Positions 5,928 through 24,833 of a stretch of DNA of 41,961 bases are shown here, one piece after another (positions within the stretch are counted from its first letter, which is position 1; each line of letters starts with the position of its first letter). The notes beneath the pieces are model-generated. The model was not told the DNA's origin, did no database searches, and was given only the letters and a program-made list of their open reading frames with translations. The position numbers were made by a program, and so were the translations under genes. The DNA comes from a bacterium (GTDB taxonomy: Bacteria; Patescibacteriota; Patescibacteriia; JACQRZ01): positions 1-41,961 of the forward strand of contig JAHFJA010000008.1 of NCBI GenBank assembly GCA_023246095.1. The letters run 5' to 3'.

Positions 5928-8900
5928 ATGATTCCAAAAAAACAAAAAGCAAAAAAACCTTACAGATTTTTACCTCATATTCTTTCTCTCTCTTTTTTGT
6001 TGGCTTCAGTTTTGGGAGCTTTTTTAATTCTCTATTTAAATTCGCGTACTTCCGACACCTCTGCTGTTATTAACAACACAATCGCTACGACTAACATTAC
6101 CCAAGAGTCATCAATGGCTTTGGGTGCGGATGGTTTCGCCCGTGTAACTTACTTTGGGGGTCTAAGTCTTAATTTGTATTTCGTACAATGCACCAACACA
6201 GCATGTACCACTAAGAACACAACAGACGTGGACACGGGGGGTTCAGTTGGTCGGTATTCTTCTGTGGCTATGGATACATCTGCTGGCGGTGATGGATTTG
6301 CTCGAATTAGTTATGAAAGCCAAGCAGATGGAGATCTTAAATTTATACAGTGTACCAACGCTGACTGCTCAACACGAAACACCACTACACTAGACACTGT
6401 TGGTAGCGTCGGGTTTTATACATCCACCGTGATAGACCCTACAGACCATTTTGCTCGAATTAGTTATACAGATAACACAAATGCACATCTCAAATATATA
6501 CGATGCACGAATGCTTCTTGTTCTACAAATGTAATGACGGTAGTAGATACTGCGAGCGGTACGGCAGGGTTTAGTTCGCTAGCATTAGACTCTTCTCCAG
6601 GTGGTGATGGGTTTGCTCGAATCAGTGAATTTGACGCATCGTTCAATCTTAGACTTGTGCAATGTACAGACGCTGATTGTTCCACTCACAACATAACGGT
6701 GGTAGATTCGATAAGTGGACGGTATACATCTTTGGCGTTGGACCCAACTGACCACTTTGCTCGGATCAGTTATTATAACCAAGCAACGGGGGATTTGAAA
6801 TTTGCGCAGTGCACAGACGCCACATGTTCGACTCATAACATTACAACAGTTGACTCAACCGATGATGTTGGATGGTATCCATCTTTGGCATTAGATACGT
6901 CTGTCGGTGGCGATGGTTTTGCCCGTATCAGCTATTATGACAACACTCATGCTTTTCTGAAATACGCCCAATGTACAGACGCTACATGTGCAGGACGTAA
7001 TGTCACTACTATTTTTAATACGCAAGCAGTCGGACAAAATACTACAATAAAGATTGACCCCACGGATCATTTTGCGCGCATTAGTTATCTTGACCAAACA
7101 AATCACGCGATGAAGTTTGCTCAATGTATTGATGCCGCTTGTTCGGGCTTTCCTCCTACTGCGCCAACGTCGCTAATTGCAAACACTGGAACTGCCACGG
7201 CCCAGGTGGCACCCGCTGACCCAACAGCATTGACTTCTTCCGACATTGTCTTCTCGGCAATTTATCATGATCCAGACACGGAGGCGGGGTTGCAATATCA
7301 GCTTCAAGTTGCCACAGACAATCTTTTTAATTCTATCGTTTACGATTCAGGCGCTAATATTTCTTTAGCGGCAAACGCTGTGGATGGGGCTCGTTCTTCC
7401 GATATTTCTTCTCCTGCCGTTTTTGCCCAAAATACTACATACTATTGGCGTATTAGATTTTGGGACGCAGGTAACACGGGGACAGGGGCTTGGTCACCTA
7501 GTGGAGGAAGTGCTGCGTCTTTTAAGACGAATCCCGATCTTTCTATCACACTCACTGATTTAGATTACTCCACAGATCTTTCGGGTTTGTATAGTTCTAT
7601 TGCTGTTGGGCTGGATGGGTTTTCTCGCATTAGTTATTACAATCAGACGACCGGTGATTTAAAATATGTCCAATGTACTAATGCCACATGTTCCACAAGG
7701 GTCCTCACGACTATCGATAGTACCGGTGATGTTGGTATGTATACCTCAATCAAGGTGGCCTCCGACGGCTTTGCTCGTATTAGCTATTATGACAATACTA
7801 ACGGTGACCTTAAGTTCGTTAAATGTGGTGATGCCGCTTGTACTCCAGGGAGTGCTACATTCACAACTATTGATAGTGCGACCCAAGTCGGCCAATATAC
7901 TTCACTGGTGTTAGGATCTGATGGGTTTGCACGAATAAGCTATTATGATGCTACGCCAGGCAATAAAGGGGCGGGCACTATTCAAGATCTAAAATTCGTT
8001 CAATGTACCAATGCAACATGTTCAACAAACGTTATCAGTACGGTAGATAGTACGGGTAATGTGGGTATGTATACTTCACTGGCGTTAGGCTCTGATGGTT
8101 TTGCACGTATCTCTTATTATGATAGTACGAATGCCGATCTGAAATTTGCTCAATGTACCAATGCTACCTGCTCAACAAATGTGCTTACGACTGTTGATAG
8201 CTTTAGAACAGTAGGCTCGTACTCTTCTATCGCTATGGCCTCGGATGGTTTTGCGCGAATTAGTTATTCTAATCCAAACGATGGTGATCTAAAATTTGCT
8301 CAATGTACCAATGCTACCTGCTCAACAAATGTGCTTACAACTGTTGATAGTGTAGGAACTGTAGGGGACTATACCTCGTTGTCTATGGCTTCGGATGGTT
8401 TCGCTCGCATAAGCTATTACGATGCCACAAATACAGCAGTAAAAGTTGCCGCATGTACCAATACAGCATGTAGTACAAACACGTTGACGACGATTCAGAC
8501 AGGTGGAAATGTTGGACAGTACACTGCAATGACCCTTGTAAGTGATATTCCGCAGATTACCTACTTTCATGGTCTTCCTCATTATGATTTAACTCTGGCA
8601 CAATGTTCTACTAGTACTTGTGCTGCTGCTGTGGTTAACATCGCACCGACTGCAAACAGTGTTTCGATTACCGGTACTGTCCTTATTGGGCAGACTCTTA
8701 CTGGTCACTACACTTACGCTGATACAGAAAGTGATCCTCAAGGTACTTCCACTTTTCGTTGGCTTAGAGATGGCGCAACGGCGATAAGTGGAGCTACTGC
8801 TTTGACCTATACTATAGTTCCCGCTGATATGGGTCATACGGTTGTTTTTGAAGTGACGCCGGTGGCGACCACAGGAACGACCCCAGGAACCCCTGTGCCA

Positions 8901-10577
8901 AGTTCTGCGACCATTTCGGTTCCTGGGGTTAGTTGTATTAACGCGCCAACTGGTCTTGTCTCATGGTGGCCTGGTGATGGTAATACGAGTGATAGGCAAG
9001 GTACTGATACAGGGCAACTTAATAATGGCGCGACGTTTGCTTCTGGCCAGGTTTCTCAGGGGTTTAGTTTTGATGGGGTCAACGATAGTATGACTGCGAG
9101 TGATGCAGGTTTTCCCAGCGGAAATGCAGATAGGACGATTATCGCTTGGGTAAAGACCGCCGCAACAGGGGAAAAATACTTCCTTTCTTATGGTACCAAT
9201 TCTGCGACGAATGCATTTGCTGTCGGTGTGCTCAATAATAAACTAACAATTGCTCAATCGGGTACTAATATTTCTTCCAACGCCAGCATAAATGATAATA
9301 ATTTTCATCTTGTGGCGGTAACGTATTCTGGAACGGGGGATAGTTATAAGCTATATATCGACGGCGTTCTTGATAAGACAGCTACGATGACAACCTCGAC
9401 TACGTTAGGAGGCTCCCTATACCTTGGAAGATACCTTACTGCCAGTAATTACTTTGCTGGTGTTGTTGATGAAGTAATGGTCTATAATCGCGCGCTGAAT
9501 TTTTCAAATATTAATGCACTATATAACGCTGGGGCAGTATGTCATTCAATTAACGAACTCCTTAATCTTACTGATACTGTTACTCGTCAAACAACCTCAG
9601 TGGACGCAAATCACACTTTGGTTTTCACTACACCTTCAGGCATACCGGAAGATAGTACTCTCACGGTGACATTCCCTACAGGATTTAACCTCTCTACTCT
9701 CACTGAAGATGATGTCGATATTCAAGATGATGGTGTTGATCTAACAACCGCGACAACATGTACTGGTTCCGAAAAGGCGAGTGTTGTAATAAGTGGTCAA
9801 ATAGTGACGGTAACGATTTGTAATAGTGATGGCGGTGCCATCGCTCCCAACAGTGTGGTGACGGTAAAAATCGGTACGAACGCAACTCAGTCGGGGGTTG
9901 GTAGTCATATGATTGCGAATCCAGCAACGGCTGCCAATTACCTCGTCTCTATTGGAGGTACTTTTGGTGAAGCAGAATCCCTCAGTCTCCCTATCGTCGA
10001 TAGTGATCAAGTAACCGAGTCAGCAAGCATCACTCCATATATTACATTTGATCTCGACACAGGTATCAGTGTCGGTGAAACCTTGCCTCCTTACACGGTG
10101 TACTTTGGCAACCTCTCTCCGTTGGTTGTTTCTTCATCAGATCACACCAGTATTAACTCAGTATATTTAGATCTCAATACCAATGCGTATGGCGGAGCAA
10201 TTGTTACCGTCAAAGGCGCGTATGGGGGATTAAAGAGTACAATCGTTAACTCTTTAATTACGACCACTGACTCGGGTACGGCTGTTCCTCTCTCGGCGGG
10301 CACTGAAGGATTCGGTCTATGTATCGCCAGTACTTCAGCGGTAGGGGGAGCTATTACCAAAACGGCACCCTACAATGGAAGCTGTGATGCCACTACTCAC
10401 AATATTGGAGGTATCACCACTTCACCTCGTACGTTGTTCACTAGTGCTGGTGCTCCAGTCGATGGAACAGCTAACGACACGGCCGAAGTGATGTTTAAGA
10501 CCTCTATTGCTCCTACCACAAAAGCAGCGACTGACTACACTGAAGTGATTACTTTTATTGCTACCGGGAGTTTCTAA
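5928..10577 (+). CDS. Giant surface protein 1: two seven-repeat propellers, Fn3, Ig-like, LamG and C-terminal module
   Basis: This 1549-residue protein has a basic N-terminus and one hydrophobic segment (about 14-37) acting as a signal anchor or signal peptide. Two arrays of seven ~50-residue repeats (about 50-406 and 537-904) carry the core DGFARISYYD..NGDLKF.QCTNA.C and are separated by an Fn3-like domain (about 407-535, TTYYWRIRFWD). An Ig-like domain with a VLIGQTLTGHYTY-type opening follows (about 905-1000), then a LamG/concanavalin-like domain (about 1001-1205, LVSWWPGDGN, FSFDGVNDS). The last ~340 residues form a beta-rich module shared with the next two genes and end EVITFIATGSF. No LPXTG or C-terminal membrane segment is present. 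It is probably exposed at the cell surface and adhesive or carbohydrate-binding, which is inference. The next gene starts 3 bp downstream. Confidence 0.85.
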   Translation: MIPKKQKAKKPYRFLPHILSLSFLLASVLGAFLILYLNSRTSDTSAVINNTIATTNITQESSMALGADGFARVTYFGGLSLNLYFVQCTNTACTTKNTTDVDTGGSVGRYSSVAMDTSAGGDGFARISYESQADGDLKFIQCTNADCSTRNTTTLDTVGSVGFYTSTVIDPTDHFARISYTDNTNAHLKYIRCTNASCSTNVMTVVDTASGTAGFSSLALDSSPGGDGFARISEFDASFNLRLVQCTDADCSTHNITVVDSISGRYTSLALDPTDHFARISYYNQATGDLKFAQCTDATCSTHNITTVDSTDDVGWYPSLALDTSVGGDGFARISYYDNTHAFLKYAQCTDATCAGRNVTTIFNTQAVGQNTTIKIDPTDHFARISYLDQTNHAMKFAQCIDAACSGFPPTAPTSLIANTGTATAQVAPADPTALTSSDIVFSAIYHDPDTEAGLQYQLQVATDNLFNSIVYDSGANISLAANAVDGARSSDISSPAVFAQNTTYYWRIRFWDAGNTGTGAWSPSGGSAASFKTNPDLSITLTDLDYSTDLSGLYSSIAVGLDGFSRISYYNQTTGDLKYVQCTNATCSTRVLTTIDSTGDVGMYTSIKVASDGFARISYYDNTNGDLKFVKCGDAACTPGSATFTTIDSATQVGQYTSLVLGSDGFARISYYDATPGNKGAGTIQDLKFVQCTNATCSTNVISTVDSTGNVGMYTSLALGSDGFARISYYDSTNADLKFAQCTNATCSTNVLTTVDSFRTVGSYSSIAMASDGFARISYSNPNDGDLKFAQCTNATCSTNVLTTVDSVGTVGDYTSLSMASDGFARISYYDATNTAVKVAACTNTACSTNTLTTIQTGGNVGQYTAMTLVSDIPQITYFHGLPHYDLTLAQCSTSTCAAAVVNIAPTANSVSITGTVLIGQTLTGHYTYADTESDPQGTSTFRWLRDGATAISGATALTYTIVPADMGHTVVFEVTPVATTGTTPGTPVPSSATISVPGVSCINAPTGLVSWWPGDGNTSDRQGTDTGQLNNGATFASGQVSQGFSFDGVNDSMTASDAGFPSGNADRTIIAWVKTAATGEKYFLSYGTNSATNAFAVGVLNNKLTIAQSGTNISSNASINDNNFHLVAVTYSGTGDSYKLYIDGVLDKTATMTTSTTLGGSLYLGRYLTASNYFAGVVDEVMVYNRALNFSNINALYNAGAVCHSINELLNLTDTVTRQTTSVDANHTLVFTTPSGIPEDSTLTVTFPTGFNLSTLTEDDVDIQDDGVDLTTATTCTGSEKASVVISGQIVTVTICNSDGGAIAPNSVVTVKIGTNATQSGVGSHMIANPATAANYLVSIGGTFGEAESLSLPIVDSDQVTESASITPYITFDLDTGISVGETLPPYTVYFGNLSPLVVSSSDHTSINSVYLDLNTNAYGGAIVTVKGAYGGLKSTIVNSLITTTDSGTAVPLSAGTEGFGLCIASTSAVGGAITKTAPYNGSCDATTHNIGGITTSPRTLFTSAGAPVDGTANDTAEVMFKTSIAPTTKAATDYTEVITFIATGSF
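6075..7146 (+). repeat. Seven-repeat array 1A (predicted beta-propeller)
   Basis: Seven units are counted by their core motifs, here alternating DGFARISY and DHFARISY-type. Most units have a Cx4C pair (e.g. CTDATC). Unit length is about 50 residues. Confidence 0.75.
7536..8640 (+). repeat. Seven-repeat array 1B (predicted beta-propeller)
   Basis: There are six clear units with DGF-A/S-RISY and a seventh degenerate one (DIPQITYF). Adjacent units 4 and 5 are nearly identical in DNA at a 150-bp offset (around 8141 and 8291), pointing to recent unit duplication. Confidence 0.75.
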
Positions 10578-10580
10578 AAT

Positions 10581-13500
10581 ATGCTAAAGAAAAAACACTT
10601 TAATTTTCCGCTGTTACTTTCTGTATTGATTCTGGTGGTTGGAGTCACTACATTTCTTTTTCTACAAACCAAAGATACTCCCACAGAGGCAAGTAGTACG
10701 GTGATAAACTCTATTGATACCACAGGGGATGTTGGGTTAAATTCCTCCATTGCTATTGATACTTCTCCGGGGGCTCCCGATAATTTTCCGTACATTAGTT
10801 ATTTCGATCAAACAAACCAAGATTTGAAATACATAAAATGTGGCGACGCTGCATGTACACCAGCAACCAATATTGTCACCACGATTGAAGGTCAAGTTGT
10901 GGGATCGCCTGCTGTTGCAGCTACTCAAACAGGACTGCACACCTCTATTGTAATCGGTTCCGATCACTTTGCTCGAATTTCGTATTACAGTATAACGAAC
11001 AATGCCCCGGCAGCTAACTTTAGTTTACGGTTTGTTAAATGTCTTAATATTGAATGTCGTAGTACCACAACGAGTCCTGCGGGGATACCTACGAATTCTC
11101 CTGTTGATTTAGGTACTGCGGAAAACTCTCCCACATCAATTGCACTTGATAATTCTGGGTTCCCGAGAATCACTTTCAGTAAAAGTAATGGAACAGGGAG
11201 TGGTTTGAATATTATTCAGTGCTCAAGTGCCGATTGCTCGACAGGAAAAACCCCTGTTGAATTAGACGGTTCTGCGGCGGTGGTAGGGTCCGCTTCGTCG
11301 ATTGCTGTAGGCTCTGATAATTTGACTAGAGTAGCCTACAACGATCAAACAAATACGAACCTAAAGTTTATTAAATGTGCAACAGTGACGTGTACTACAT
11401 CAGAAACAAAGACAGTGCTTGATGGTGCAACTCCTGCAACAACAGTTGGGTATAATCCTTCAATGAAACTTAGCACATCTAATCTTCCTCGAATTAGTTA
11501 CTTTGATGTAACGACTTCAAATCAACATTATAAATACGCCGAGTGTACGGTTGATGATTGTACGGGTACGGTAAACATCACTCAACTTGATCCAGAAATA
11601 GTTACCGACAGTGGAGGTTCTATTTCATCTTTGACACTAGGTACTGACGGTATCCCTAGTATCGCATATCAGTCAATTCAAAAATTGAAGTTTATTCGAT
11701 GTTCTGATACCTCATGTACTTCAAAAAACATACTATTTTTAGATAGTACTGGAAACGTGGGAGCTGATAATTCAATTGCGTTCGGGGCAGATGGATTTCC
11801 TCGTATAAGCTATCGTGATCAGACGAATGCAGATTTGAAATATATTCAATGTACCGATGCAACATGCGGTCGTGTTCCAAGTGCACCCACTTCCCTTTTA
11901 ATGAACGTCATAGAAAATGGTGCTCTCACTCAATTTAACACCACAGACAGTGGGAGGTTGGCACTGACTTCCAAAGAACTTGTTGTTACCGCAGTAAACA
12001 ATGATCTGGACCTGGCAGATGTTGTCGATAAGTATGAAGTTCAAGTAGCTACCGATAATGCTTTCTCCAGTATTGTTTATGATTCTGGATCGACGGGAAC
12101 AAGTATGGCATCGAGGGCGAATGGGGCTCAATCCGCCCAGATTGAAGTACCTGCCGCTATATCTGAAAATACAACGTACTATTGGAGGATACGGTTTTGG
12201 GATCACGCAGGAAACGCAGGTGATTTTTCACCATCAGGGGCTGGGGCAGCTAGTTTCAAGACAAGTGCTGGACTTACTCCTGTTATAAACAATATCGATA
12301 CAACAGGGGATGTAGGTCAATATTCTTCCATTGTTATCTATCCAACAGACGGTTTTGCACGAATCAGTTATTATGATGCGACCAATGGAGATCTAAAATT
12401 TAAACGATGTACAAATGCAGATTGTACGACGGCAGTTACCACTACCGTTGATAGTACGGGTATTATTGGACAACATACCGCGTTGGCATTAAATTCATCA
12501 GGGTTGGCAAGAATTGTTTACTATAATGCGACATTGGGTGGTCCATTTGGACCTGTCGGAGATGTAAAATATGTAGAGTGTCTCGATGCAGATTGTTCGA
12601 CAGGCAATAGAAATATCACTACTATTGCCACATCTGGTGATGTAGGTCAGTTTGCATCCATTGCTATAAGCTCTGTATCTGACGGAGAACTTGCAAGTAT
12701 TAGTTATTATAATACATCTGGCGGATTTCCATCGGGACCGGGTGATCTTATTTTTGTAAAATGCCCCAATACCGCTTGTACAGGAAGTTCTTCTGTTAAT
12801 CTTGATACTGTAGGGAACACTGGCTCCTACACGTCTCTAAAATTGAGTACCACTGCAGGAACTATTGATTATCCTCGCATCAGTTTTTATGATACTACCA
12901 ATGGAAATCTCAGGTTCGTACGATGTGGCGATAAAACATGTACACCAGCAAGCGCAACATTTACCAATGTTGACGGGGTGTCTCCTGTAACCAATGTGGG
13001 ACAATACACATCACTTTCTCTCACCTCAACGGACATCCCCTATATCAGCTATTATGATGTGACAAATGGAGATCTAAAGTTGGTGATCTGTGGCGATGTT
13101 ACTTGTTCGAGCGGAAATACTTTTCCTGTTTTGGATACCACAGGAGATGTGGGGAAATATACGTCTCTTAGTCTTACTGTCACCGGTATACCGCGGATTA
13201 GTTATTATGATGTAACTAATACTGCGCTTAAGTTTGCAACGTGTTCCGATACTGTGTGTACTTCCAGTACTATGACAACCCTTAATAAGGTGGGTAATAT
13301 GGGTCAATACAGTTCTCTCTCTTTAGGTGCTGATTCATTTGCGCGGGTTAGTTATTATGATGCATCTAATGGTGATTTAAAGTTTGCGTTGTGCACGACA
13401 GGAAGTTGTACTGCACCTACCAACACTCCTCCCACCACCCCTACCACCCTCTATGCAAACACCGCCGCAAACACCGCACAGTCCGGCGTTGCAAGCCCGG

Positions 13501-15953
13501 CAACCCTAAACTCTACCAGTGTCGTTTTTTCTGCGGTACACAATGATCCTGATGGAGACGCAACAGATAAGTACGAATTGCAAATCGATAACAATAATGA
13601 CTTTTCGAGTTTACTCTATGACTCGGAACAGACAGGTCTTGTTGGTACAACTCTTACTTCAACTTCCAGTGGAAGTCGTACCCCTACTCCTGATATAAGT
13701 ATTCTTGCAAATGGTGCAAACTCGGGAGCCGTACTCAATAACTTTTCCGGAGGAGTGCCTACGCCAAATACGGTGTACTACTGGCGTATTCGTTTTTGGG
13801 ATATCAATGGCGCGAGAGGGGATTTTTCACCGGATATCGGGGGTGCTGCCCAATTCACGGTGATTATAGGGGGCGCACCAACCGCACCAACTGCACTGTA
13901 TGCAAACACATCTGTGATAGGAGCACAGTCGGGTCGGGATAATCCAACTAATCTTGCATCAACCAGCGTAGTTTTCTCAGCCATTCATAATGACCCTGAC
14001 GCAAATGCAGCAAACAAATATGAATTGCAGATTGATGATGATAATGATTTTTCAAGCGTGATCTATGATTCCGGATCATTGGGAACGAGTATGACATCAA
14101 CGACGGATGGCAGTCGGACCCATACTCCCGATATCGGTATCTTGGCTGCCGGTGGGGGGGTAACGAATACATTGGTTGGAGGTGTTCCTTCACTCAATAC
14201 TACTTATTTCTGGCGTATTAAATTTTGGGATACCGATTCTAATGTAGGCGCCTATTCCCCTAGTGGTGTCGATGCTGCATATTTCATAGTTTCTACTACA
14301 AACTGCGCAACTCCTCCAACAGGATTAGTTTCGTGGTGGCCAGGAGATAATAATAGTTCTGATATGCAAGGTACCCATCCAGGCATCTTAACAGGAGGCA
14401 CTACATTTAACTCAGCAAAAGTTGCACAAGGATTTAGTTTTGATGGGGTGAATGATTCTGTGAGTATGACAGATACTGGTTTTCCTAGTGGAACACAAGA
14501 TCGAACATTATCTGCATGGATTAAGACATCTGCAACAGGAGAAAAATATTTCCTATCCTATGGTACTGATGTTGCGACACAAGCGTTTGGATTTGGAGTA
14601 TTAAACAACAAACTCACGGTGACTCAGTCAGGTAGTTCTATCTCATCTAGTGCAAGCGTAAACAGCAATGTATTTCATCATGTTGCCGTCACCTATAGTG
14701 CAACAGGTGATACTTACAAACTTTATATTGATGGAGTGCAAGATGGTACAGGGACAATGACAACCTCGACAGTGTTAAGCGGTTCTCTTTTTCTCGGACG
14801 ATATGTGACAGCAACGAATTTTTTCGCTGGTATTGTGGATGAGCCTATGATATTTAATCGCGCATTGTCACTCTCTGAAATTAATTCGATGTATCTTATG
14901 GGCTCGACGGGAGTATGTAAACCGTCGTTGAATGTTTTCAACATGGCCGATACCCTTACTCGTCAAGCTAAAACAGCAGACTCGAACCACACACTGATCC
15001 TTACTACTCCAAAAGGTATCCCTGATTCTTCTACTTTTACTATCACATTTCCTGCAGGATTTAATCTGACTACTCTCACTGAAGATGATATCGATATCCA
15101 AGATGATGGTGTTGATCTCACTACCGCCCCCGATTGTACTGGTTCTGAAAAAGCGAGTGTTTCGATTAGTGGTCAGGTGATCACGGTGACAATTTGTAAT
15201 GGTGATGGCGGTGCGATCGCCCCAAATAGTGTAGTGACAGTAAAAATTGGTACCAACGCAACACAATCAGGTACTGGTAGTCATACCATATCCAATCCAT
15301 CGTCGGTCGCTAACTATGTGATTTCTATCGGCGGTACCTTTGGAGAAACAGGATCCCTCAGTCTCCCTATTGTTGATAGTGATCAAGTAAATGAGTCAGC
15401 AAGTATCACTCCTTATATTACCTTTGATCTTGACACGGGTATCAGTGTTGGTGAGACTCCAACTCCTTACACTGTGTACTTTGGCAACCTATCTCCTTTG
15501 GTTGTCTCATCGTCGGATCACACCAGTATCAACTCGGTATATTTAGACCTCAACACCAATGCTGTAGGCGGAGCAATCGTTACTGTCAAAGGGGCATATG
15601 GAGGATTGAAGAGCACTATGGTTAACTCTCTTATCACCACCACTGACTCGGGTACGGCAGTTCCTCTCTCGGCAGGAACGGAAGGATTTGGTTTATGTAT
15701 CGCCAACACCTCGACGGTAGGGGGAACTATCACCAAAACCGCCCCATACAACGGAAGTTGTGATGCAACAACACACAATATCGGAGGTATCACTATTTCA
15801 CCACGTACGTTGTTCACTAGTTCAGGCGCACCGGTCGATGGTACAGACAACAATACTGCCGAAGTGATGTTTAAGACCTCTATATCTCCTACCACAAAAG
15901 CAGCGATTGATTATACTGAGGTCGTTACCTTTATTGCAACGGGGAGCTTTTAA
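10581..15953 (+). CDS. Giant surface protein 2: two seven-repeat propellers, three Fn3-like domains, LamG and C-terminal module
   Basis: This 1790-residue paralogue of the preceding gene starts 3 bp after its stop, so the two are probably co-transcribed. It has an N-terminal basic stretch and one hydrophobic segment (about 5-28). Seven divergent repeats (about 39-433) are followed by an Fn3-like domain (434-563) and seven further repeats (about 566-947). Two tandem Fn3-like domains come next (about 948-1096 and 1097-1238, each with YYWRIRFWD or YFWRIKFWD), then a LamG-like domain (about 1241-1447) and the C-terminal module (about 1450-1790, ending EVVTFIATGSF). The C-terminal module is almost the same protein sequence as in protein 1, while the propeller repeats have diverged strongly. 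The role is presumably surface display of binding domains; the ligand is unknown. Confidence 0.85.
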   Translation: MLKKKHFNFPLLLSVLILVVGVTTFLFLQTKDTPTEASSTVINSIDTTGDVGLNSSIAIDTSPGAPDNFPYISYFDQTNQDLKYIKCGDAACTPATNIVTTIEGQVVGSPAVAATQTGLHTSIVIGSDHFARISYYSITNNAPAANFSLRFVKCLNIECRSTTTSPAGIPTNSPVDLGTAENSPTSIALDNSGFPRITFSKSNGTGSGLNIIQCSSADCSTGKTPVELDGSAAVVGSASSIAVGSDNLTRVAYNDQTNTNLKFIKCATVTCTTSETKTVLDGATPATTVGYNPSMKLSTSNLPRISYFDVTTSNQHYKYAECTVDDCTGTVNITQLDPEIVTDSGGSISSLTLGTDGIPSIAYQSIQKLKFIRCSDTSCTSKNILFLDSTGNVGADNSIAFGADGFPRISYRDQTNADLKYIQCTDATCGRVPSAPTSLLMNVIENGALTQFNTTDSGRLALTSKELVVTAVNNDLDLADVVDKYEVQVATDNAFSSIVYDSGSTGTSMASRANGAQSAQIEVPAAISENTTYYWRIRFWDHAGNAGDFSPSGAGAASFKTSAGLTPVINNIDTTGDVGQYSSIVIYPTDGFARISYYDATNGDLKFKRCTNADCTTAVTTTVDSTGIIGQHTALALNSSGLARIVYYNATLGGPFGPVGDVKYVECLDADCSTGNRNITTIATSGDVGQFASIAISSVSDGELASISYYNTSGGFPSGPGDLIFVKCPNTACTGSSSVNLDTVGNTGSYTSLKLSTTAGTIDYPRISFYDTTNGNLRFVRCGDKTCTPASATFTNVDGVSPVTNVGQYTSLSLTSTDIPYISYYDVTNGDLKLVICGDVTCSSGNTFPVLDTTGDVGKYTSLSLTVTGIPRISYYDVTNTALKFATCSDTVCTSSTMTTLNKVGNMGQYSSLSLGADSFARVSYYDASNGDLKFALCTTGSCTAPTNTPPTTPTTLYANTAANTAQSGVASPATLNSTSVVFSAVHNDPDGDATDKYELQIDNNNDFSSLLYDSEQTGLVGTTLTSTSSGSRTPTPDISILANGANSGAVLNNFSGGVPTPNTVYYWRIRFWDINGARGDFSPDIGGAAQFTVIIGGAPTAPTALYANTSVIGAQSGRDNPTNLASTSVVFSAIHNDPDANAANKYELQIDDDNDFSSVIYDSGSLGTSMTSTTDGSRTHTPDIGILAAGGGVTNTLVGGVPSLNTTYFWRIKFWDTDSNVGAYSPSGVDAAYFIVSTTNCATPPTGLVSWWPGDNNSSDMQGTHPGILTGGTTFNSAKVAQGFSFDGVNDSVSMTDTGFPSGTQDRTLSAWIKTSATGEKYFLSYGTDVATQAFGFGVLNNKLTVTQSGSSISSSASVNSNVFHHVAVTYSATGDTYKLYIDGVQDGTGTMTTSTVLSGSLFLGRYVTATNFFAGIVDEPMIFNRALSLSEINSMYLMGSTGVCKPSLNVFNMADTLTRQAKTADSNHTLILTTPKGIPDSSTFTITFPAGFNLTTLTEDDIDIQDDGVDLTTAPDCTGSEKASVSISGQVITVTICNGDGGAIAPNSVVTVKIGTNATQSGTGSHTISNPSSVANYVISIGGTFGETGSLSLPIVDSDQVNESASITPYITFDLDTGISVGETPTPYTVYFGNLSPLVVSSSDHTSINSVYLDLNTNAVGGAIVTVKGAYGGLKSTMVNSLITTTDSGTAVPLSAGTEGFGLCIANTSTVGGTITKTAPYNGSCDATTHNIGGITISPRTLFTSSGAPVDGTDNNTAEVMFKTSISPTTKAAIDYTEVVTFIATGSF
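10695..11877 (+). repeat. Seven-repeat array 2A (predicted beta-propeller)
   Basis: Seven divergent units are recognised by DNFPYISY, DHFARISY, SGFPRITF, DNLTRVAY, SNLPRISY, DGIPSIAY and DGFPRISY. Each is followed by a Cx4C pair. Confidence 0.75.
12276..13420 (+). repeat. Seven-repeat array 2B (predicted beta-propeller)
   Basis: Seven units are recognised by DGFARISY, SGLARIVY, ELASISY, DYPRISF, DIPYISY, TGIPRISY and DSFARVSY. Each has a Cx4C pair. Confidence 0.75.
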
Positions 15954-15999
15954 AGTGTAAAAGGGATTATGAGGGGTAGCTGATGTAGAGAGGGTATGG

Positions 16000-16005
16000 T
16001 ATAGT
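16000..16005 (+). promoter_or_regulatory. Extended -10 promoter of the third giant gene
   Basis: TATAGT is preceded by TGG. No good -35 is visible at 17 bp. A start near 16012 would give a leader of about 47 nt ending in a pyrimidine-rich stretch directly before the ATG at 16059. Confidence 0.5.
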
Positions 16006-16058
16006 TAAAATATACAATCCGTCGCTAAAGACCCGGTTTCAACCCTCTTTTTCTTTCT

Positions 16059-19000
16059 ATGATACAGAAGAAACATTTTCGACTTACAGCCCTTTTTTCG
16101 GTGCTTCTTCTTATTATTGGAGCAACTGCATTCCTATTTATACAAAGTAACAATACTCCGACGTACGCCACGACTATTACTACAGTAGATACGGTCGGTG
16201 ATGTAGGATCGTATCCGTCTACTGCGATTGCTTCATCTGACGGATTTGCTCGTATTAGTTATTATGATACTACCAATGGTGATCTAAAATTCGTCCAATG
16301 CACCAACGCCTTATGCTCAACACACAATATTACAACAGTTGACTCGACTGGTGATGTGGGATGGTATACGTCAATCGCGCTCGATTCAAATAATTTAGCC
16401 TTTATCAGCTATTATGATGCTACCAATGGTGATCTAAAATTCGTTCAATGTACCAACGCGGCATGCTCTACTAGCAATATTACCACAGTCGACTCGACTG
16501 GTGATGTAGGAACAGGTTCTTCTCTTAAGATCGCATCCGACGGATTTGCCCGTATCGCTTATACTGATACTACTAATGCTGATATTAAATTCGCCCAGTG
16601 CACCAACGCCGCATGTACAACGAAGACTATTACCTCTGTAATTACACTCCCAAATGCCTCTGGTGTTATTTCGCTCGCTCTTAACTCTAGTGATCTTGCG
16701 CGATTCACCTACTATGATTTTGGTGTTAGCGATCTTATATTCGTCCAGTGCACCAACGCCGCATGCTCTACTAAAAATACCACCACAGTCGACTCGACCG
16801 GTATTGTAGGGTCAAGTTCATCGTTAGTTCTTAACTCTAGTGACTTGGCGCGAATCAGTTATTTTGATCAAACTAACGGCGATCTCAAATTTGCAGAGTG
16901 CACCAATAGTGTGTGTTCAACTAAAAATATTACTACAGTAGACGCGACTGGTGTCGCAGGAGTGCAATCCTCAATTACTTTGGCTTCCGATGGTTTTGCG
17001 CGGATTAGCTATGTTAGCAATGGTGGCGGGCTTAAGTTTATTGGCTGTCTCACTAGTAATTGTGCATCAAGATTCAATACCACCGTAGATGTTTCAGCAG
17101 CGCAATTTGGAGCTCCATCAATCGCATTGGGGTCTGATGGGTTTGCACGGATTAGCTACTATTATGGAGGTAATGCAGGTTTAAATTTCGTTCAATGTAC
17201 GAACAATGCCTGTAATAGTAATCAAGCCCCCTCTGCCCCTGACACATTATTTGCAAACGTTAGTACGACGGGTGCAGCGACAGGGAGTGCGAATCCTACT
17301 AATTTGAGTCTAAAAGCCGTATCATTTACTGCCATCCATCGCGATCTTGGCGAAGATGCGGCAAATAAGTATAGGTTACAAATTTCAACCAATTCGGATT
17401 TTTCAGTTACCGGGGCCTATGTATATGATAGTGGTTCAGCGGGAACTCCTCTCCCAGCCAACGTATCAAATAATGCACGATCAACAAGTATAGGAAGTCC
17501 ATATCTTGCTCTTACTGGGGGCACCACATACTATTGGCGCATTGCTTTTTATGATACTTCTGGAAATGTTGGACCATTTTCAACAGAGACAGCAACATTT
17601 ACCACAGTGACCACACCTACACCAAGCACAAGTCTTGCCGACGGAGATTTAATTGCCGGTACGATAGGCAATTATGCAAGTCTAGGTATTGGGGGAGATG
17701 GTTTCCCTCGCATTGCTTACCAATATATAACAGGTCTTGATCTTTATTATGTGCAGTGTTTTGACGCAGTGTGTGGAACGCATGCCACAACAGTACTAGA
17801 AACAACTAATAGTGTGGGGGCATACATATCTATGTATACTGATCCTGTGGACGGATTTTCTCGTATTAGTTATCAAGATTCGACAAATGGAGACCTAAAA
17901 TTCATCCGTTGTACCAATGCTTCTTGCAGTACAAAAAATTCTAGATTGGTTGATTCAACAAATGTTACTGGTTTGTATACTTCTATAGCGCGAGGATCAG
18001 GTGGGTTCCCTCAAATTAGTTACTATGACTCGACTTTGGGAGACCTAAAGTTTGTGCAATGTGCTGACGCAGACTGCTTGACGGTATATAATTCAAGTAA
18101 CGTTATTGTTGCGAGCGGCACTACTTCAATCACTCTTGATTCGACCGGTGATGTTGGGCAATACACTTCGTTATCTATTGACAGTAATGGGTTTCCACGA
18201 ATTGCCTATTATGATGTCACAAACACAGATTTAAAACTGGTGCGATGTGGAAATAATGGCTCTGTGTTTTGTACAACGGGAAATGTTGTTGTGGGTGTGG
18301 ATGTTAGTGGAAATAATGAAGGACAATTTGAATCGCTCGCGTTGGATAGCCATAACTGTGAAAGCATTAGTTATCATGAAGGGGGGAGCGGAGATTTGAG
18401 ATTTGCTCGATATGCCTGGAATGGTTCAGCTTGTGACTCGTCGCCCACACTAACGACATTAGATACGGCGGGTGTTACAGGACAATATACATCAATTAAA
18501 ATGGGTGCTGGCGATATTCCTTCCATCGCGTATGTGAATGCCAGTAACCCAAACTTGAGATTTATACGATGCCCTAATGCTGCTTGTACTTCGCCAAGTC
18601 CAATCAATCTTGACGGAACTGTTGGATCAGGGGTATATGCGAGTCTTATTATAGGAAACTCTGGTACATATACAAACGATAATTTACCTAGAGTAGCGTA
18701 TATACGTGGTTCCGATCTCTACATAGCTGTTTGCTACAATACAGGGTGTCTTCCCAACCAAGGACCTAGTGCTCCAGCATCTCTCCTTGTAAACACCACT
18801 GCAAATGGTGCCCAAACAGCAGACTGTTCTCCTTCGTCCGGAAAACCGAATTGTACAAATCCTATTGATCTTGCATCCACGAGTCTCACTTTTTCTGCAG
18901 TAGGAAGCGATGTTGATCTTGAAAATATGAATAAGTACGAATTACAGATTTCAATATACCCTGACTTTAATACCTTGAAATACGATAGCGGTACAGCAGG

Positions 19001-22000
19001 TACCAGCCTTACTTCGTTTGCAAACGGGACTCGATCGGGAAGTGTGGGAATTCTTGGAAGCGGTGGAACCGGATTTTCGAATACGTTTACAGGAGGAGTT
19101 CCTTCACAAGATACGACCTACTATTGGCGCATTAAATTTTGGGATGTCTCGGGTAATGCGGGTACTTTTTCCAATACGACGCCAGTCGATTCATTTATTA
19201 TTCCTTCAGGGGGCACTACGCCGATACTAAGTGTCCTTGATGCGTTAGGTACTACTGGTCAATATCCTTCCGTTGCGGTCGATCAAACAAGTGGGCTGGC
19301 ACGTATAGCATATTCAGATGCGACAAATAGCGATCTTCGTTATATACAATGTACAAATATTCCTTGTTCAACCTATACGACTAAACTTGTAGACGGGGTT
19401 GGATTCACGACAGGTGCCTATACTTCTATCGCGCTGGGAACAGGAGGAATTCCTCAAATCAGCTATTATGACATCAATACGTCTCGGATGAAACTTGCTA
19501 TTTGTAATGATCTTGCGTGCAGTTCACCAACTATTGTTTCGACGTTTGCGGGTACTGTTGTCGGACAAGGACAGTATTCATCGATTGCTATAGGTAGCGA
19601 TAACCTCGCGCGCATTGCTCATTATGGAGCTGTGGGGCTCAATCCTTATATTACTCGATGTCTCACTGCATTGTGTGCTACCTCAACAACCACTACTATT
19701 GATGCCAGTGCCGGAGACCAAGGTCAATATATATCGCTCGTGTTAAGTACTGCACCCGCCACGCTCGATTTTCCTCGTGTCAGCTACTACGATGCCACTG
19801 TGGGAGATCTTATATATGTGAAATGTGGGAACGTGGATTGTACAGGATCTACACCTGTCTCTATTGATACCACGAATACTGTCGGTCAACACACATCTAT
19901 TGGGTTGACAAGCACAGGCATACCGATAATCAGCTATTACTATGTTACGGGATCTGATTTACGCATTGTCGTCTGTGGAAGTGATACATGCAGTTCAGGA
20001 AATACCATAACTACTCTTGATTCGATAAACGTTACAGGACAAAACACTTCGCTTAAGATTGGGTCAGATGATCGCGCTGCAATCGCGTATTACGCAAATA
20101 CAAGTGGCTCATTGAAATTAGCGCGATGTATCGATGCAACATGTAACACAGCACAAGTAAATACAGTCGAGAGTGGGTTGGGTAGTGGAACTTCTTTTGT
20201 TGGTATGGGAATAGGTTCGGACAATATTCCAAGGATTGGAGCTTATAATGTGTCGCTGGGGGATTTAAATTTTGCGAAGTGTAACAATATATATTGTGGC
20301 ACGGTACCCAACTTCGCCCCCACTGCTCCAACTACCTTATATAGCAATACAGGACAAAATGGTGCTCAATCAGGCCTGGACAATCCCACTACCCTTAACT
20401 CCACCAACGTGGTCTTCTCTGCCATCTACAATGATCCTAATACACTGGACACTGCTAGCAAATATGAACTTCAGATTGCCACCAACAATAGTTTCTCTGG
20501 TCCATCCATCGTTTATGATTCTGAAAACACCGGACTAATAGGAACCACTCTGACCCTCAATCCACTTAATGGAGCTCGCTCCACCAATATCCCTATCCTT
20601 GCCAACGGGGGAGCGGTGACCAATATCTTTAGTGGAGGCATGCCAACTCTTAATACCCCCTACTACTGGCGTATCCGTTTCTGGGACAACAGTGGTGCAC
20701 AAGGAGCATTTTCTTCTGATCTGGGGGGTGCTGCCTCTTTTATCGTCACATCAAATGTTGCACCTTCTATCACCACATTGGACAGTGTGGGGGATGTGGG
20801 ACAATACACCTCAAATGTTGTTAACTTGAACGTTACAGGCTCAGATGGATTTTCTCGAATTGCCTATTATGATACCACCAATGCAGATCTCAAGTTTATT
20901 CAATGTACTAACTCCAATTGTTTGACCCGAGTGACTACTACCGTCGATTCTACTAACATAACAGGTCAAAATCCTTCTATTTCAATGGGTGCCGATGGTT
21001 TCGCTCGCATTGCCTACAAAAATGTTTCGGGTGGTGCAACAAATGATGACCCTATACTTGCTCGATGTACCAGTGCAGATTGTTCTTCAAGAGTACCTAC
21101 AATTATTGATAGCACCGCTAACGCGGGAGTTGATACTTCAATCGCAATGGATAATGCCGTGGGCGGGGATGGTTTTGCGCGCGTTCTTTATACCGGTAAT
21201 AACGGAGTATTTTTTGCTCGATGTACCAACGCAAATTGTTCTACTAGCGTCGTTACGTCAACTGTCTTTATTTCTGCTACTAGTCCTACATCTCACAATA
21301 CTTCTATGACCCTTGGTGCTGATCATTTTGGTCGTGTTAGCTACTATCAAGGCAACACACTGAATTTTATGCAGTGCACTAATGCTAATTGCAGTACCAG
21401 AGTTCTTACTGTGTTGGATAATTCGGTTGCTAATGTGGGGTCTCACACGTGGATTGCGATGGGCTCTGATGGTTTTGCGCGTATTAGCTACTATGATGTC
21501 ACTAATGGTGACCTCAAATTCATCCAGTGTACCAATGATGCTTGTACAGCCAAGGTGACTACCACTGTCGATTCTACAGGGAACGTTGGACAATATACTT
21601 CTCTTTCTTTGGGTCCAAATGACTTTGCTCGTATTAGTTACTATGATGTCACTAACGGTGATCTTAAATATGCTCAATGTGGTAACGCAAGCTGTTCAAC
21701 TAGTGTGATTACGACACTTGATTCTGTGGGTAATGTAGGACAAAGTACATCGCTTTCTCTCGCCTCTGATGGATCTCCTCGCATTGCCTACTATGATGTC
21801 ACTAACGGTGATCTTAAATATGCTCAATGTGGTAACGACAGTTGTACTCCCAACATTGCCCCCACCACCCCTACCGTCCTCTACGTCAACACCACTACCA
21901 ACGGAGCACAATCCGGCGTAGCAAGTCCTGCCACTCTCGCATCCACGAGTATCGTCTTTTCCGCCATTCATCATGATACCGACGGAGATGCAGCCAACAA

Positions 22001-24833
22001 GTATGAATTGCAAATTGATAATAACAGTGATTTTTCAAGTGTGTTGTACGATTCGGAAAACACTGGTCTCGTAGGAACAACTCTTACCCCCAACGCAAAT
22101 AATGGTGCACGTTCTACCGACATAGCAATCTTGGTAAATGGAGGGGCAGTCACCAATCTATTTTCCGGAGGGGTACCATCTACAAGCACAACGTACTATT
22201 GGCGCATCCGTTTTTGGGATACCAACGGTGCGAGAGGAGATTATTCACCTGATACCGGAGGTGCAGCAAGTTTCTATATTAACTCCGCCCCCACCACCCC
22301 TACCGTCCTCTACGTCAACACTACTACCAGCGGAGCACAATCCGGTGTAGCAAGTCCCGCAACCCTCGCATCCACCAGTGTTGTCTTCTCCGCAGTTCAC
22401 CATGATGCGGACGGAGATGCAGCCAGCGAATATGAATTACAGATTGATAATAACAGTGATTTTTCAAGCGTGCTCTATGATTCGGAAAATACTGGTCTCG
22501 TAGGAACAACTCTTACTCCCAATGCAAACGATGGAGCACGCTCTACGAATATAGCAATCTTGGCAAATGGCGGAGCAGTCACCAACTTATTTTCGGGGGG
22601 CGTACCATCCACAAACACGACGTACTATTGGCGCATCCGTTTCTGGGATGCCAGAGGAGCACGAGGTGATTATTCACCTGATACCGGAGGTGCAGCTCAA
22701 TTCATGGTCGTCATAGGTAGCAGTCCTACAGCACCCACTTCACTATATGCAAATACCTCTGCCTTAGGTGCCCAACTTGGCCTTGCCAACCCCACCACCC
22801 TTAGTTCTTCAAATGTTGTCTTTTCCGCAATCAACAATGACCCGGATGGGGACATAGTAAACAAGTATGAATTGCAGATCGACGACGATGACACTTTCTC
22901 AAGTGTCCTCTATGATTCCGAGAACACTGGCTTGGTGGGTACGAACATGACGGCGACTTCCAACGGAAGTCGTACCCCCACACCTGACATTGCTATCCTC
23001 TCTAATGGAGGTGCAGTTACCAATACATTCAGTGGAGGATTACCATCGGTTGGTATTACCTACTATTGGCGTATTAGATTTTGGGATACTAACGGGAATA
23101 GAGGCGCATTTTCTCCCTCAGGAACAAACGCCGCCTATTTCTTAGTACCGGGGGTTAGTTGTGTCAACGCTCCTTCCGGTTTAGTTTCGTGGTGGCCCGC
23201 AGATAACAATACTACTGACCGACAAGGAAGCAATTCAGGGCAGCTTTCAAATGGTGCTACATTTGGTAATGGGAAAGTTTTAAGAGGTTTCAGTTTTGAT
23301 GGGATCAACGATTCAGTAAACATGACAGACACAGGACTTCCTAGTGGAACACAAGATCGTACGATAGTAGGCTGGCTCAAGACGGGTTCATCAGGAGAAA
23401 AATATTTCTTTTCCTATGGTACTGATGTGGCCACACAAGCATTTGCCTTTGGGATACTCGACAACAAACTTACTATCTCCAATTCAGGCACTAATATTTC
23501 TTCAGCATCCAACGTAAATGACAGTACATTCCATCATGTTGCGGTAACATACAACTCAACAGGAGATGTATACAAGCTGTATATTGATGGCGTACTAGAC
23601 GGCACAGGCACTATGACGACCTCAACGGTCCTGTCAGGTTCTACCTACCTAGGTCGTTACCTCACTGCCTCAAATTTCTTTGCGGGTATTCTCGATGAAC
23701 CTGCAATATTTAATCGTGTCCTCTCAAGTTCAGAAATCAATTCGTTATATCAAGCAAACTCATCGGGTATATGTAAACCCATCACAGGGGTGACGAGCGT
23801 GAGCAACACTCAAACGACACAGAAGACCTCAGCCACAGGGAATCAGACTATTTCCTTCAGTACTCCCAGCGGTGCCCCCGAGGACGCAACCATCACCCTC
23901 ACATTCCCTGCCAGTTTTAACATTGCCAGCATTACCGAAGATGACGTCGATTTGGCTGTTGATGGTGTAGATCTCACCACCGCTGCCACATGTTCCGGTT
24001 CAGAAAAGGCGAGTGTCGCTGTCAGTGGTCAAACGCTCACTTTCACGATCTGTAATGGTGACGGAGGTGCTATAGCAAAAAACAGCGTAGTGACTCTAAG
24101 GATAGGAACCAACGCCACCGTATCAGGGACAGGGGTGAATCAAATTACCAACCCTAGTACTGTTGGCAGTTATACTCTTGCCATAGGTGGTACGTTTGGA
24201 GATGTGGGTTCCATTGTCGTCCCTGTTACCGACAGCGATCAAGTGGGGGTAGGTGCTACCGTGTCTCCAACCATTACGTTTGATATTGATAGTGCACTCA
24301 CCGACAGTGAAACATCGGCACCATACACGATCGCTTTGGGATCACTCACTCCATCAATACTGACTACCTCGAATGGATTATTAATTAATGGGCCAGAGAT
24401 TAACAGTATCTTCCTTGATCTCAACAGTAATGCATTTGGTGGCGCATCAGTAACCGTATTTGGTACGAATGGAGGACTCTACTCTCCTAGCAAAACTACC
24501 CTTATTACTCCCGCAACCGCGGAAGAAACGATTGTTGCCGGGCAAGCAAAGTTTGGTCTCTGCGTCGCGGCGATTTCCCAGACTTCAGGATTAGGAACGT
24601 TCAGCGCATCACCCAATTATGATGCTGATGGATTATCAAACTGCACTACTACAAATGGAGGTACTCCAAAGATTGGAAAAGTGAATACCACCCCAACACC
24701 GATAGTGGCAACAAACGGTACCATCTCAGGAGGACGTGTTCAGATACTTGCCAAAGCATCGGTTACCAACATAACCCCTGCTTCCAATGATTATCAAGAG
24801 GTGCTTACATTTATTGCGACGGGGACGTTTTAA
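16059..24833 (+). CDS. Giant surface protein 3: four seven-repeat propellers, six Fn3-like domains, LamG and C-terminal module
   Basis: At 2924 residues this is the largest protein in the window. It has an N-terminal hydrophobic segment (about 8-28) followed by a likely processing region (TPTYAT). Four arrays of exactly seven repeats (about 38-389, 523-902, 1053-1418 and 1568-1932) are each followed by an Fn3-like domain. After the fourth array there are three in tandem (about 1934-2076, 2077-2218 and 2219-2363), the first two highly similar in DNA. A LamG-like domain (about 2364-2572) and the C-terminal module (about 2573-2924, ending EVLTFIATGTF) complete it. It belongs with the two preceding paralogues but has its own promoter. 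The C-terminal module is more divergent than those of proteins 1 and 2. Function unknown; adhesion or host-cell contact is a reasonable inference for an episymbiont. Confidence 0.85.
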   Translation: MIQKKHFRLTALFSVLLLIIGATAFLFIQSNNTPTYATTITTVDTVGDVGSYPSTAIASSDGFARISYYDTTNGDLKFVQCTNALCSTHNITTVDSTGDVGWYTSIALDSNNLAFISYYDATNGDLKFVQCTNAACSTSNITTVDSTGDVGTGSSLKIASDGFARIAYTDTTNADIKFAQCTNAACTTKTITSVITLPNASGVISLALNSSDLARFTYYDFGVSDLIFVQCTNAACSTKNTTTVDSTGIVGSSSSLVLNSSDLARISYFDQTNGDLKFAECTNSVCSTKNITTVDATGVAGVQSSITLASDGFARISYVSNGGGLKFIGCLTSNCASRFNTTVDVSAAQFGAPSIALGSDGFARISYYYGGNAGLNFVQCTNNACNSNQAPSAPDTLFANVSTTGAATGSANPTNLSLKAVSFTAIHRDLGEDAANKYRLQISTNSDFSVTGAYVYDSGSAGTPLPANVSNNARSTSIGSPYLALTGGTTYYWRIAFYDTSGNVGPFSTETATFTTVTTPTPSTSLADGDLIAGTIGNYASLGIGGDGFPRIAYQYITGLDLYYVQCFDAVCGTHATTVLETTNSVGAYISMYTDPVDGFSRISYQDSTNGDLKFIRCTNASCSTKNSRLVDSTNVTGLYTSIARGSGGFPQISYYDSTLGDLKFVQCADADCLTVYNSSNVIVASGTTSITLDSTGDVGQYTSLSIDSNGFPRIAYYDVTNTDLKLVRCGNNGSVFCTTGNVVVGVDVSGNNEGQFESLALDSHNCESISYHEGGSGDLRFARYAWNGSACDSSPTLTTLDTAGVTGQYTSIKMGAGDIPSIAYVNASNPNLRFIRCPNAACTSPSPINLDGTVGSGVYASLIIGNSGTYTNDNLPRVAYIRGSDLYIAVCYNTGCLPNQGPSAPASLLVNTTANGAQTADCSPSSGKPNCTNPIDLASTSLTFSAVGSDVDLENMNKYELQISIYPDFNTLKYDSGTAGTSLTSFANGTRSGSVGILGSGGTGFSNTFTGGVPSQDTTYYWRIKFWDVSGNAGTFSNTTPVDSFIIPSGGTTPILSVLDALGTTGQYPSVAVDQTSGLARIAYSDATNSDLRYIQCTNIPCSTYTTKLVDGVGFTTGAYTSIALGTGGIPQISYYDINTSRMKLAICNDLACSSPTIVSTFAGTVVGQGQYSSIAIGSDNLARIAHYGAVGLNPYITRCLTALCATSTTTTIDASAGDQGQYISLVLSTAPATLDFPRVSYYDATVGDLIYVKCGNVDCTGSTPVSIDTTNTVGQHTSIGLTSTGIPIISYYYVTGSDLRIVVCGSDTCSSGNTITTLDSINVTGQNTSLKIGSDDRAAIAYYANTSGSLKLARCIDATCNTAQVNTVESGLGSGTSFVGMGIGSDNIPRIGAYNVSLGDLNFAKCNNIYCGTVPNFAPTAPTTLYSNTGQNGAQSGLDNPTTLNSTNVVFSAIYNDPNTLDTASKYELQIATNNSFSGPSIVYDSENTGLIGTTLTLNPLNGARSTNIPILANGGAVTNIFSGGMPTLNTPYYWRIRFWDNSGAQGAFSSDLGGAASFIVTSNVAPSITTLDSVGDVGQYTSNVVNLNVTGSDGFSRIAYYDTTNADLKFIQCTNSNCLTRVTTTVDSTNITGQNPSISMGADGFARIAYKNVSGGATNDDPILARCTSADCSSRVPTIIDSTANAGVDTSIAMDNAVGGDGFARVLYTGNNGVFFARCTNANCSTSVVTSTVFISATSPTSHNTSMTLGADHFGRVSYYQGNTLNFMQCTNANCSTRVLTVLDNSVANVGSHTWIAMGSDGFARISYYDVTNGDLKFIQCTNDACTAKVTTTVDSTGNVGQYTSLSLGPNDFARISYYDVTNGDLKYAQCGNASCSTSVITTLDSVGNVGQSTSLSLASDGSPRIAYYDVTNGDLKYAQCGNDSCTPNIAPTTPTVLYVNTTTNGAQSGVASPATLASTSIVFSAIHHDTDGDAANKYELQIDNNSDFSSVLYDSENTGLVGTTLTPNANNGARSTDIAILVNGGAVTNLFSGGVPSTSTTYYWRIRFWDTNGARGDYSPDTGGAASFYINSAPTTPTVLYVNTTTSGAQSGVASPATLASTSVVFSAVHHDADGDAASEYELQIDNNSDFSSVLYDSENTGLVGTTLTPNANDGARSTNIAILANGGAVTNLFSGGVPSTNTTYYWRIRFWDARGARGDYSPDTGGAAQFMVVIGSSPTAPTSLYANTSALGAQLGLANPTTLSSSNVVFSAINNDPDGDIVNKYELQIDDDDTFSSVLYDSENTGLVGTNMTATSNGSRTPTPDIAILSNGGAVTNTFSGGLPSVGITYYWRIRFWDTNGNRGAFSPSGTNAAYFLVPGVSCVNAPSGLVSWWPADNNTTDRQGSNSGQLSNGATFGNGKVLRGFSFDGINDSVNMTDTGLPSGTQDRTIVGWLKTGSSGEKYFFSYGTDVATQAFAFGILDNKLTISNSGTNISSASNVNDSTFHHVAVTYNSTGDVYKLYIDGVLDGTGTMTTSTVLSGSTYLGRYLTASNFFAGILDEPAIFNRVLSSSEINSLYQANSSGICKPITGVTSVSNTQTTQKTSATGNQTISFSTPSGAPEDATITLTFPASFNIASITEDDVDLAVDGVDLTTAATCSGSEKASVAVSGQTLTFTICNGDGGAIAKNSVVTLRIGTNATVSGTGVNQITNPSTVGSYTLAIGGTFGDVGSIVVPVTDSDQVGVGATVSPTITFDIDSALTDSETSAPYTIALGSLTPSILTTSNGLLINGPEINSIFLDLNSNAFGGASVTVFGTNGGLYSPSKTTLITPATAEETIVAGQAKFGLCVAAISQTSGLGTFSASPNYDADGLSNCTTTNGGTPKIGKVNTTPTPIVATNGTISGGRVQILAKASVTNITPASNDYQEVLTFIATGTF
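16173..17224 (+). repeat. Seven-repeat array 3A (predicted beta-propeller)
   Basis: Seven units are present (DGFARISY, NLAFISY, DGFARIAY, DLARFTY, DLARISY, DGFARISY, DGFARISY), each with a Cx4C pair such as CTNAAC. Confidence 0.75.
17625..18765 (+). repeat. Seven-repeat array 3B (predicted beta-propeller, one irregular blade)
   Basis: Seven units are present (DGFPRIAY, DGFSRISY, GGFPQISY, NGFPRIAY, HNCESISY, GDIPSIAY, DNLPRVAY). Unit 4 has a longer Cys spacing (CGNNGSVFC). Unit 5 lacks the first Cys of the pair but carries an extra Cys in its HNCESISY core. Confidence 0.7.
19215..20316 (+). repeat. Seven-repeat array 3C (predicted beta-propeller)
   Basis: Seven units are present (GLARIAY, GGIPQISY, DNLARIAH, DFPRVSY, TGIPIISY, DDRAAIAY, DNIPRIGA), each with a Cx4C pair. 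Confidence 0.7.
20763..21857 (+). repeat. Seven-repeat array 3D (predicted beta-propeller)
   Basis: Seven units are present (DGFSRIAY, DGFARIAY, DGFARVLY, DHFGRVSY, DGFARISY, NDFARISY, DGSPRIAY). Units 5-7 share long identical DNA stretches at an exact 150-bp period (starting 21491, 21641, 21791). Confidence 0.75.
21858..22715 (+). repeat. Tandem duplication of an Fn3-like domain (period 429 bp)
   Basis: Copies 21858-22286 and 22287-about 22715 both begin GCCCCCACCACCCCTACCG and remain highly similar to their ends (by eye roughly nine bases in ten). The period of 143 codons keeps the frame. Confidence 0.85.

Follow-up and report, generated by a model that had tools for sequence, protein, structure and literature searches.

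The stretch of DNA analysed here (the window; 41,961 nucleotides) is contig C3 of a 0.99 Mb Patescibacteria genome that is assembled in 40 contigs and is 95% complete. The first genes of the window are dnaA and dnaN. Further in lie three consecutive genes for giant proteins, with a dihydrouridine synthase gene on their 5' side and a gene for an SPFH protein on their 3' side, all on the plus strand. The first two giant genes are separated by 3 bases and the last two by 105 bases. Promoter and terminator scans gave signals no higher than background.

Open reading frames and domain searches delimit the three giant surface proteins as follows, with every feature on the plus strand. Protein 1 (1549 aa; 5928..10577) begins with a hydrophobic N-terminal export segment, followed by a first predicted propeller of seven units (array 1.1; 6057..7142), an Fn3/Ig-like domain, a second seven-unit propeller (array 1.2; 7548..8621), an AIR9-type Ig domain (8655..8882; PF23197, E 1.1e-6), a LamG or concanavalin-like domain (9072..9512; PF13385), and a C-terminal module of two beta domains (9534..10574) that ends DYTEVITFIATGSF. 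Protein 2 (1790 aa; 10581..15953) contains array 2.1 (10692..11867), the most diverged of the arrays and one with insertions, an Fn3/Ig-like domain (12027..12233; PF25788), array 2.2 (12276..13409), a LamG domain found by domain search (14442..14885), and the C-terminal module, recognized by sequence comparison (14907..15950). Protein 3 (2924 aa; 16059..24833) has four predicted propellers (arrays 3.1, 16170..17213; 3.2, 17628..18749; 3.3, 19215..20297; 3.4, 20766..21845) with Fn3/Ig-like linkers, three of them consecutive ahead of the LamG domain (23298..23741, domain search), and again the C-terminal module (23763..24830, sequence comparison). The first-pass annotation, made from the sequence alone, had each array end at an Fn3-like domain. 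Seven of the eight arrays do so, at Rha78A-type Fn3/Ig-like domains; array 1.2 ends at the AIR9-type Ig domain, as judged by domain search and by eye.

The repeat units were counted with a profile HMM that was seeded from clear units and iterated on the three proteins, with 60 shuffled versions of these proteins as the measure of noise. The profile finds 56 units: 14 in protein 1 (7+7), 14 in protein 2 (7+7), and 28 in protein 3 (7+7+7+7). The lowest score of a unit is 31.3 bits, whereas the shuffled proteins never exceed 4.6, and all other matches in the real proteins fall below 0. Per unit, scores range over 52–79 bits in array 1.1, 32–77 in array 2.1, 49–81 in array 2.2, 53–86 in array 3.1, and 47–85 in array 3.4. 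Thus, the count of seven in all eight arrays, originally made by eye, is borne out by the profile. The period of the unit is about 50 aa; steps vary between 39 and 76 aa, the long steps being insertions. The DGFARISY-type core used for the count by eye lies in the middle of a blade, and the phase of the unit that is consistent with a ring is 'TTVD...YTSIAL..DGFARISYY...DLKF.QC....C'. The repeat is nameless in Pfam (no model), NCBIfam, and PDB sequence searches; an array profile found no match among PDB chains at E <= 10, and a literature search for the peptide ISYYD returned nothing relevant.

The arrays are only 32–51% identical to each other, so the constant seven is no sign of recent copying. 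Copying of whole propellers with the order of blades kept was considered and is a weak candidate, because blades at the same position exceed other blades in similarity by just 0.7 points, a difference reached in 81 of 2000 permutations. As blade order is barely kept between arrays, the number seven seems, from the sequences, to be maintained while the blades turn over.

Two AlphaFold2 models were computed from input alignments of 18–19 sequences built in this analysis; together they cover arrays 3.2, 3.3, and 1.2 and the C-terminal part of protein 1. Arrays 3.3 (pLDDT ~90) and 1.2 (pLDDT ~95) each have 28 strands and array 3.2 (pLDDT mostly 80–90) has about 28, that is, four per unit. The linker, Ig, and LamG regions are poorly modelled, and the two domains of the C-terminal module are modelled well (pLDDT ~93 and 88). 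Foldseek searches of solved structures place the seven-bladed Photorhabdus lectins PLL, PLL2-5, and PHL at the top, with a target-normalised TM of 0.67–0.80 over ~345 residues at 9–15% identity. Further matches are the GH145-type propeller BT3686, the lectin CV39L, and human LGI1, and integrin alpha chains occur among the matches of the second model. Propeller matches filled the listing for that model, and among the matches listed the C-terminal module was not identified.

Every array starts with a 'TTVD'-type strand, and in its last unit it breaks off at or just after the C-x4-C behind strand three. A lone strand at the N-terminus and three strands at the end (1+3 in the last blade) make the usual ring-closing pattern: the strand ahead of the first unit would complete blade 7 and so close the ring. 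Closed rings are strongly indicated by the strand count, the end-strand pattern, and the full-length matches to closed rings, with three arrays folded. For the three folded arrays the models are confident, each unit has four strands, and the match to closed seven-bladed propellers extends along the whole array, which speaks against open solenoids. The seven-bladed beta-propeller fold proposed in the first-pass annotation is thus almost certainly correct.

A Cys pair closes 54 of the 56 units. This CX4C pair recurs in almost all blades and is probably disulfide-bonded, which would stiffen the blade outside the cell. Two adjacent blades of protein 3 (18114-18410 of the window; residues 686-784 of the 2924-aa protein) have altered Cys spacing. 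One carries C-x7-C; in the next, the first Cys is lost and a different strand has gained one, which looks like a rewiring of the disulfide. The CX4C pair is present in repeats of Patescibacteria, several archaea, Thermoanaerobaculia, and one Chloroflexi record, and is mostly absent in other phyla.

That related ISYYD..NGDLKYA repeats occur elsewhere, as stated in the first reading, is correct: repeats of other bacteria and of archaea belong to the same family by profile. A scan of collected genome contigs, with one single array as the query, gave 36 loci across many phyla, archaea included. Within the Patescibacteria, a phylum search found an array in 16 of 380 genomes, the window's genome counted. 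Among 49 arrays of relatives that have good units and are not cut by an end (one-unit gaps filled), 32 have seven units, 5 have fourteen, and the rest have 3–6, 12, or 13. Some six-unit arrays probably hide a diverged unit, as seen by eye in one locus (L013). Seven is therefore a strong mode in the relatives, not an absolute rule. These uncurated repeats are alike in profile family and in the prevalence of seven and fourteen, but they differ in that many have Trp in place of the Cys pair and in that their architectures are other ones. In an Azambacteria protein (L044; 618-3545), a PilX-type pilin-like N-terminus, seen by eye, is followed by a seven-unit array; judged from its sequence, it is possibly a pilus-borne version of the same propeller. 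The first reading had also taken the combination of several propellers, LamG, and a shared C-terminal module to be distinctive. The architecture is not confined to the window: a protein of the same genus (L042; 1281 aa) likewise combines two propellers with Fn3/Ig domains and one half of the module, though it has no LamG.

The last ~350 residues are common to the three giants. As had been noticed at the outset, they form one module, proteins 2 and 3 being 84% and 50% identical in it to protein 1. The module has 13 matches in its own genome, some of them stand-alone proteins of 370–400 aa that begin much like a signal peptide. Shorter relatives have just the final 180 residues of the module, and in multi-domain carriers its position is C-terminal. 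It matches no Pfam family, and none of 22 module copies has a match to Pfam WxL. Several contigs of the genome end inside module copies (G000:C2:17-118, C21:17-118, C16:8291-8674, and C38:6-476; the match scores of two of them are identical), so assembly breaks have probably removed further members of the family. The same genome also encodes two further giants (G000:C26:40272-51283; loci L001-L007), open frames of 3271 and 1194 aa that consist mostly of LamG domains, ~16 in tandem.

Among 287 Patescibacteria genomes, the module is present in 47 and the WxLIP domain in 88. Both occur in 30 genomes versus 14.4 expected (p 2.5e-7, a value that is too small owing to the shared ancestry of the genomes). 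In 25 of the 47 module genomes the module lies within 5 kb of WxLIP, in 24 of these on the same strand; the copies concerned are stand-alone ones and not the locus in the window. This adjacency is hard to explain other than by a real link. In the genome of the window, the two WxLIP_PGBD genes lie solely beside stand-alone modules (contigs C11 and C18); the window itself has no WxLIP gene, and the giants stand outside the WxLIP gene clusters. Pfam WxL has no match in this genome. In the 287 genomes it is found in 15 at E <= 0.1, 5 of them above the Pfam cut-off, often near WxLIP genes. Small proteins with Pfam WxL occur in the Patescibacteria genomes G315, G070, G134, G142, G097, and G268 (L129-L136), several beside WxLIP genes. 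When the C-terminal half of the module was aligned with Patescibacteria WxL proteins by hhalign, the alignments were collinear, start to start, and weak (P 0.018 and 0.026, probability ~2%). With these values and no Pfam WxL match, the module is not established as a direct homologue of WxL.

The WxL clusters of Bacilli comprise a small WxL protein, a large WxL protein with host-binding domains, and WxLIP (PMC10599100, PMC9772566). The system seen here is like them in having a small module-only protein, a large protein that carries the module C-terminally, and a partner gene of WxLIP type. It differs in that the Patescibacteria module has no Pfam WxL match and in that the giants are not in a WxLIP gene cluster. 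By analogy, the C-terminal module would hold the giants at the cell wall in the manner of WxL, docking on membrane-anchored WxLIP-like proteins. We regard such WxLIP-dependent anchoring of the giants as close to evenly balanced, leaning slightly against it. More tentatively, the Patescibacteria may have a WxL-WxLIP-type display of their own, in which a WxL-like module without Trp-x-Leu motifs shows giant arms of several propellers, lectin-like in kind, for host attachment; this broader proposal we consider doubtful but worth stating. Alternatively, the module may be no anchor but a subunit of a polymer or coat, resembling an S-layer or a fibre, through which the giants copolymerise with the small stand-alone copies. 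The several stand-alone copies of 350–400 aa per genome, often in tandem, and the missing WxL sequence match suit this alternative, whereas an anchor would match the recurring WxLIP neighbourhood and the placement at the C-terminus, as in the WxL cluster of Bacilli (PMC10599100). We hold a coat or fibre subunit to be a serious candidate, yet one that is on balance improbable.

The simplest reading of a long arm of lectin-like rings with LamG that is exported and kept at the surface is an adhesin. The three genes would encode exported, cell-attached adhesins, each with two or four closed seven-bladed propellers (four strands and ~50 aa per blade) set apart by Fn3/Ig-like spacers, followed by a lectin-like LamG domain and then by the C-terminal module with its two beta domains. 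The propellers would offer many weak sites at which glycans or the surface proteins of other cells could bind. A role of the propellers in surface binding is likely. The whole explanation, that the giants are cell-anchored, multivalent, lectin-like adhesins, is somewhat favoured; in it the repeat counts, the strand pattern at the array ends, the match of the fold, the sharing of the module, and its gene linkage are shown, and we infer secretion, disulfides, the ligand, and anchoring. Comparable surface proteins have been described in other Patescibacteria. Vampirococcus has giant membrane proteins that are thought to bind prey (PMC8080830), and the hepta-bladed propeller of PilX2 of Saccharibacteria is a candidate host adhesin (PMC12206443). 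PilX2 is likewise a surface protein of Patescibacteria with seven propeller blades, but it is made of RCC1 repeats, is a single propeller, and is borne on a type IV pilus.

The closest structural match of the folded arrays, the Photorhabdus PLL lectins, is similar in its seven four-stranded blades and ~345 aa, but there is no sequence similarity in the PDB search and just the 9–15% identity of the structural alignments. PLL lectins bind sugar at Trp-based sites between blades (PMC6943638). The arrays differ from them by having the CX4C pair, by being embedded in giant proteins, and by being without the sugar-stacking Trp; there are 3 Trp in the 56 units. Since the sugar-binding Trp of PLL type is absent, glycan binding by the propellers is a guess. 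The missing residues would also suit propellers that are structural spacers or a surface coat, with LamG as the sole binder, and many rings on a long arm would serve such a purpose. However, closed sevens of strongly diverged sequence (32–51% between arrays) would be a costly spacer, and the nearest folds are lectins and other binding propellers; we consider a spacer or coat unlikely. Propellers that act as enzymes, either glycoside hydrolases or polysaccharide lyases, are brought to mind by GH145-type BT3686 and rhamnose-glucuronate lyase propellers among the structural matches. The repeats are near-symmetric, though, no blade with a conserved residue set of its own was noticed in the alignment, and lectins are the better structural matches, all of which makes enzymes very improbable. 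Open solenoids with seven units by chance are scarcely credible in view of the seven units in eight of eight arrays, the seven or fourteen units in 37 of the 49 good arrays of relatives, and the confident propeller models of three arrays.

Cultivated Patescibacteria are episymbionts, and because few have been cultured, their attachment to other cells is largely unknown. The giants are a well-delimited candidate for an adhesin: they carry up to four propellers, a repeat that has no Pfam entry, and a module linked to WxLIP across the phylum. The fold itself belongs to a type already described; what sets these proteins apart is the repeat family, the combination of several rings, and a module with a link to WxLIP. 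The link between module and WxLIP offers a testable route to surface anchoring in Patescibacteria, for which a literature search found no such system and no paper on WxL.

Elsewhere in the window, an open reading frame of 522 aa (33242-34810) is unusual in that an ABC transporter ATPase domain is fused to an NMT1-type substrate-binding domain. It adjoins a permease gene (32470-33237) and a gene for a separate NMT1-type binding protein (31447-32466). Together with these neighbours, the fusion is possibly an importer of a thiamine precursor.
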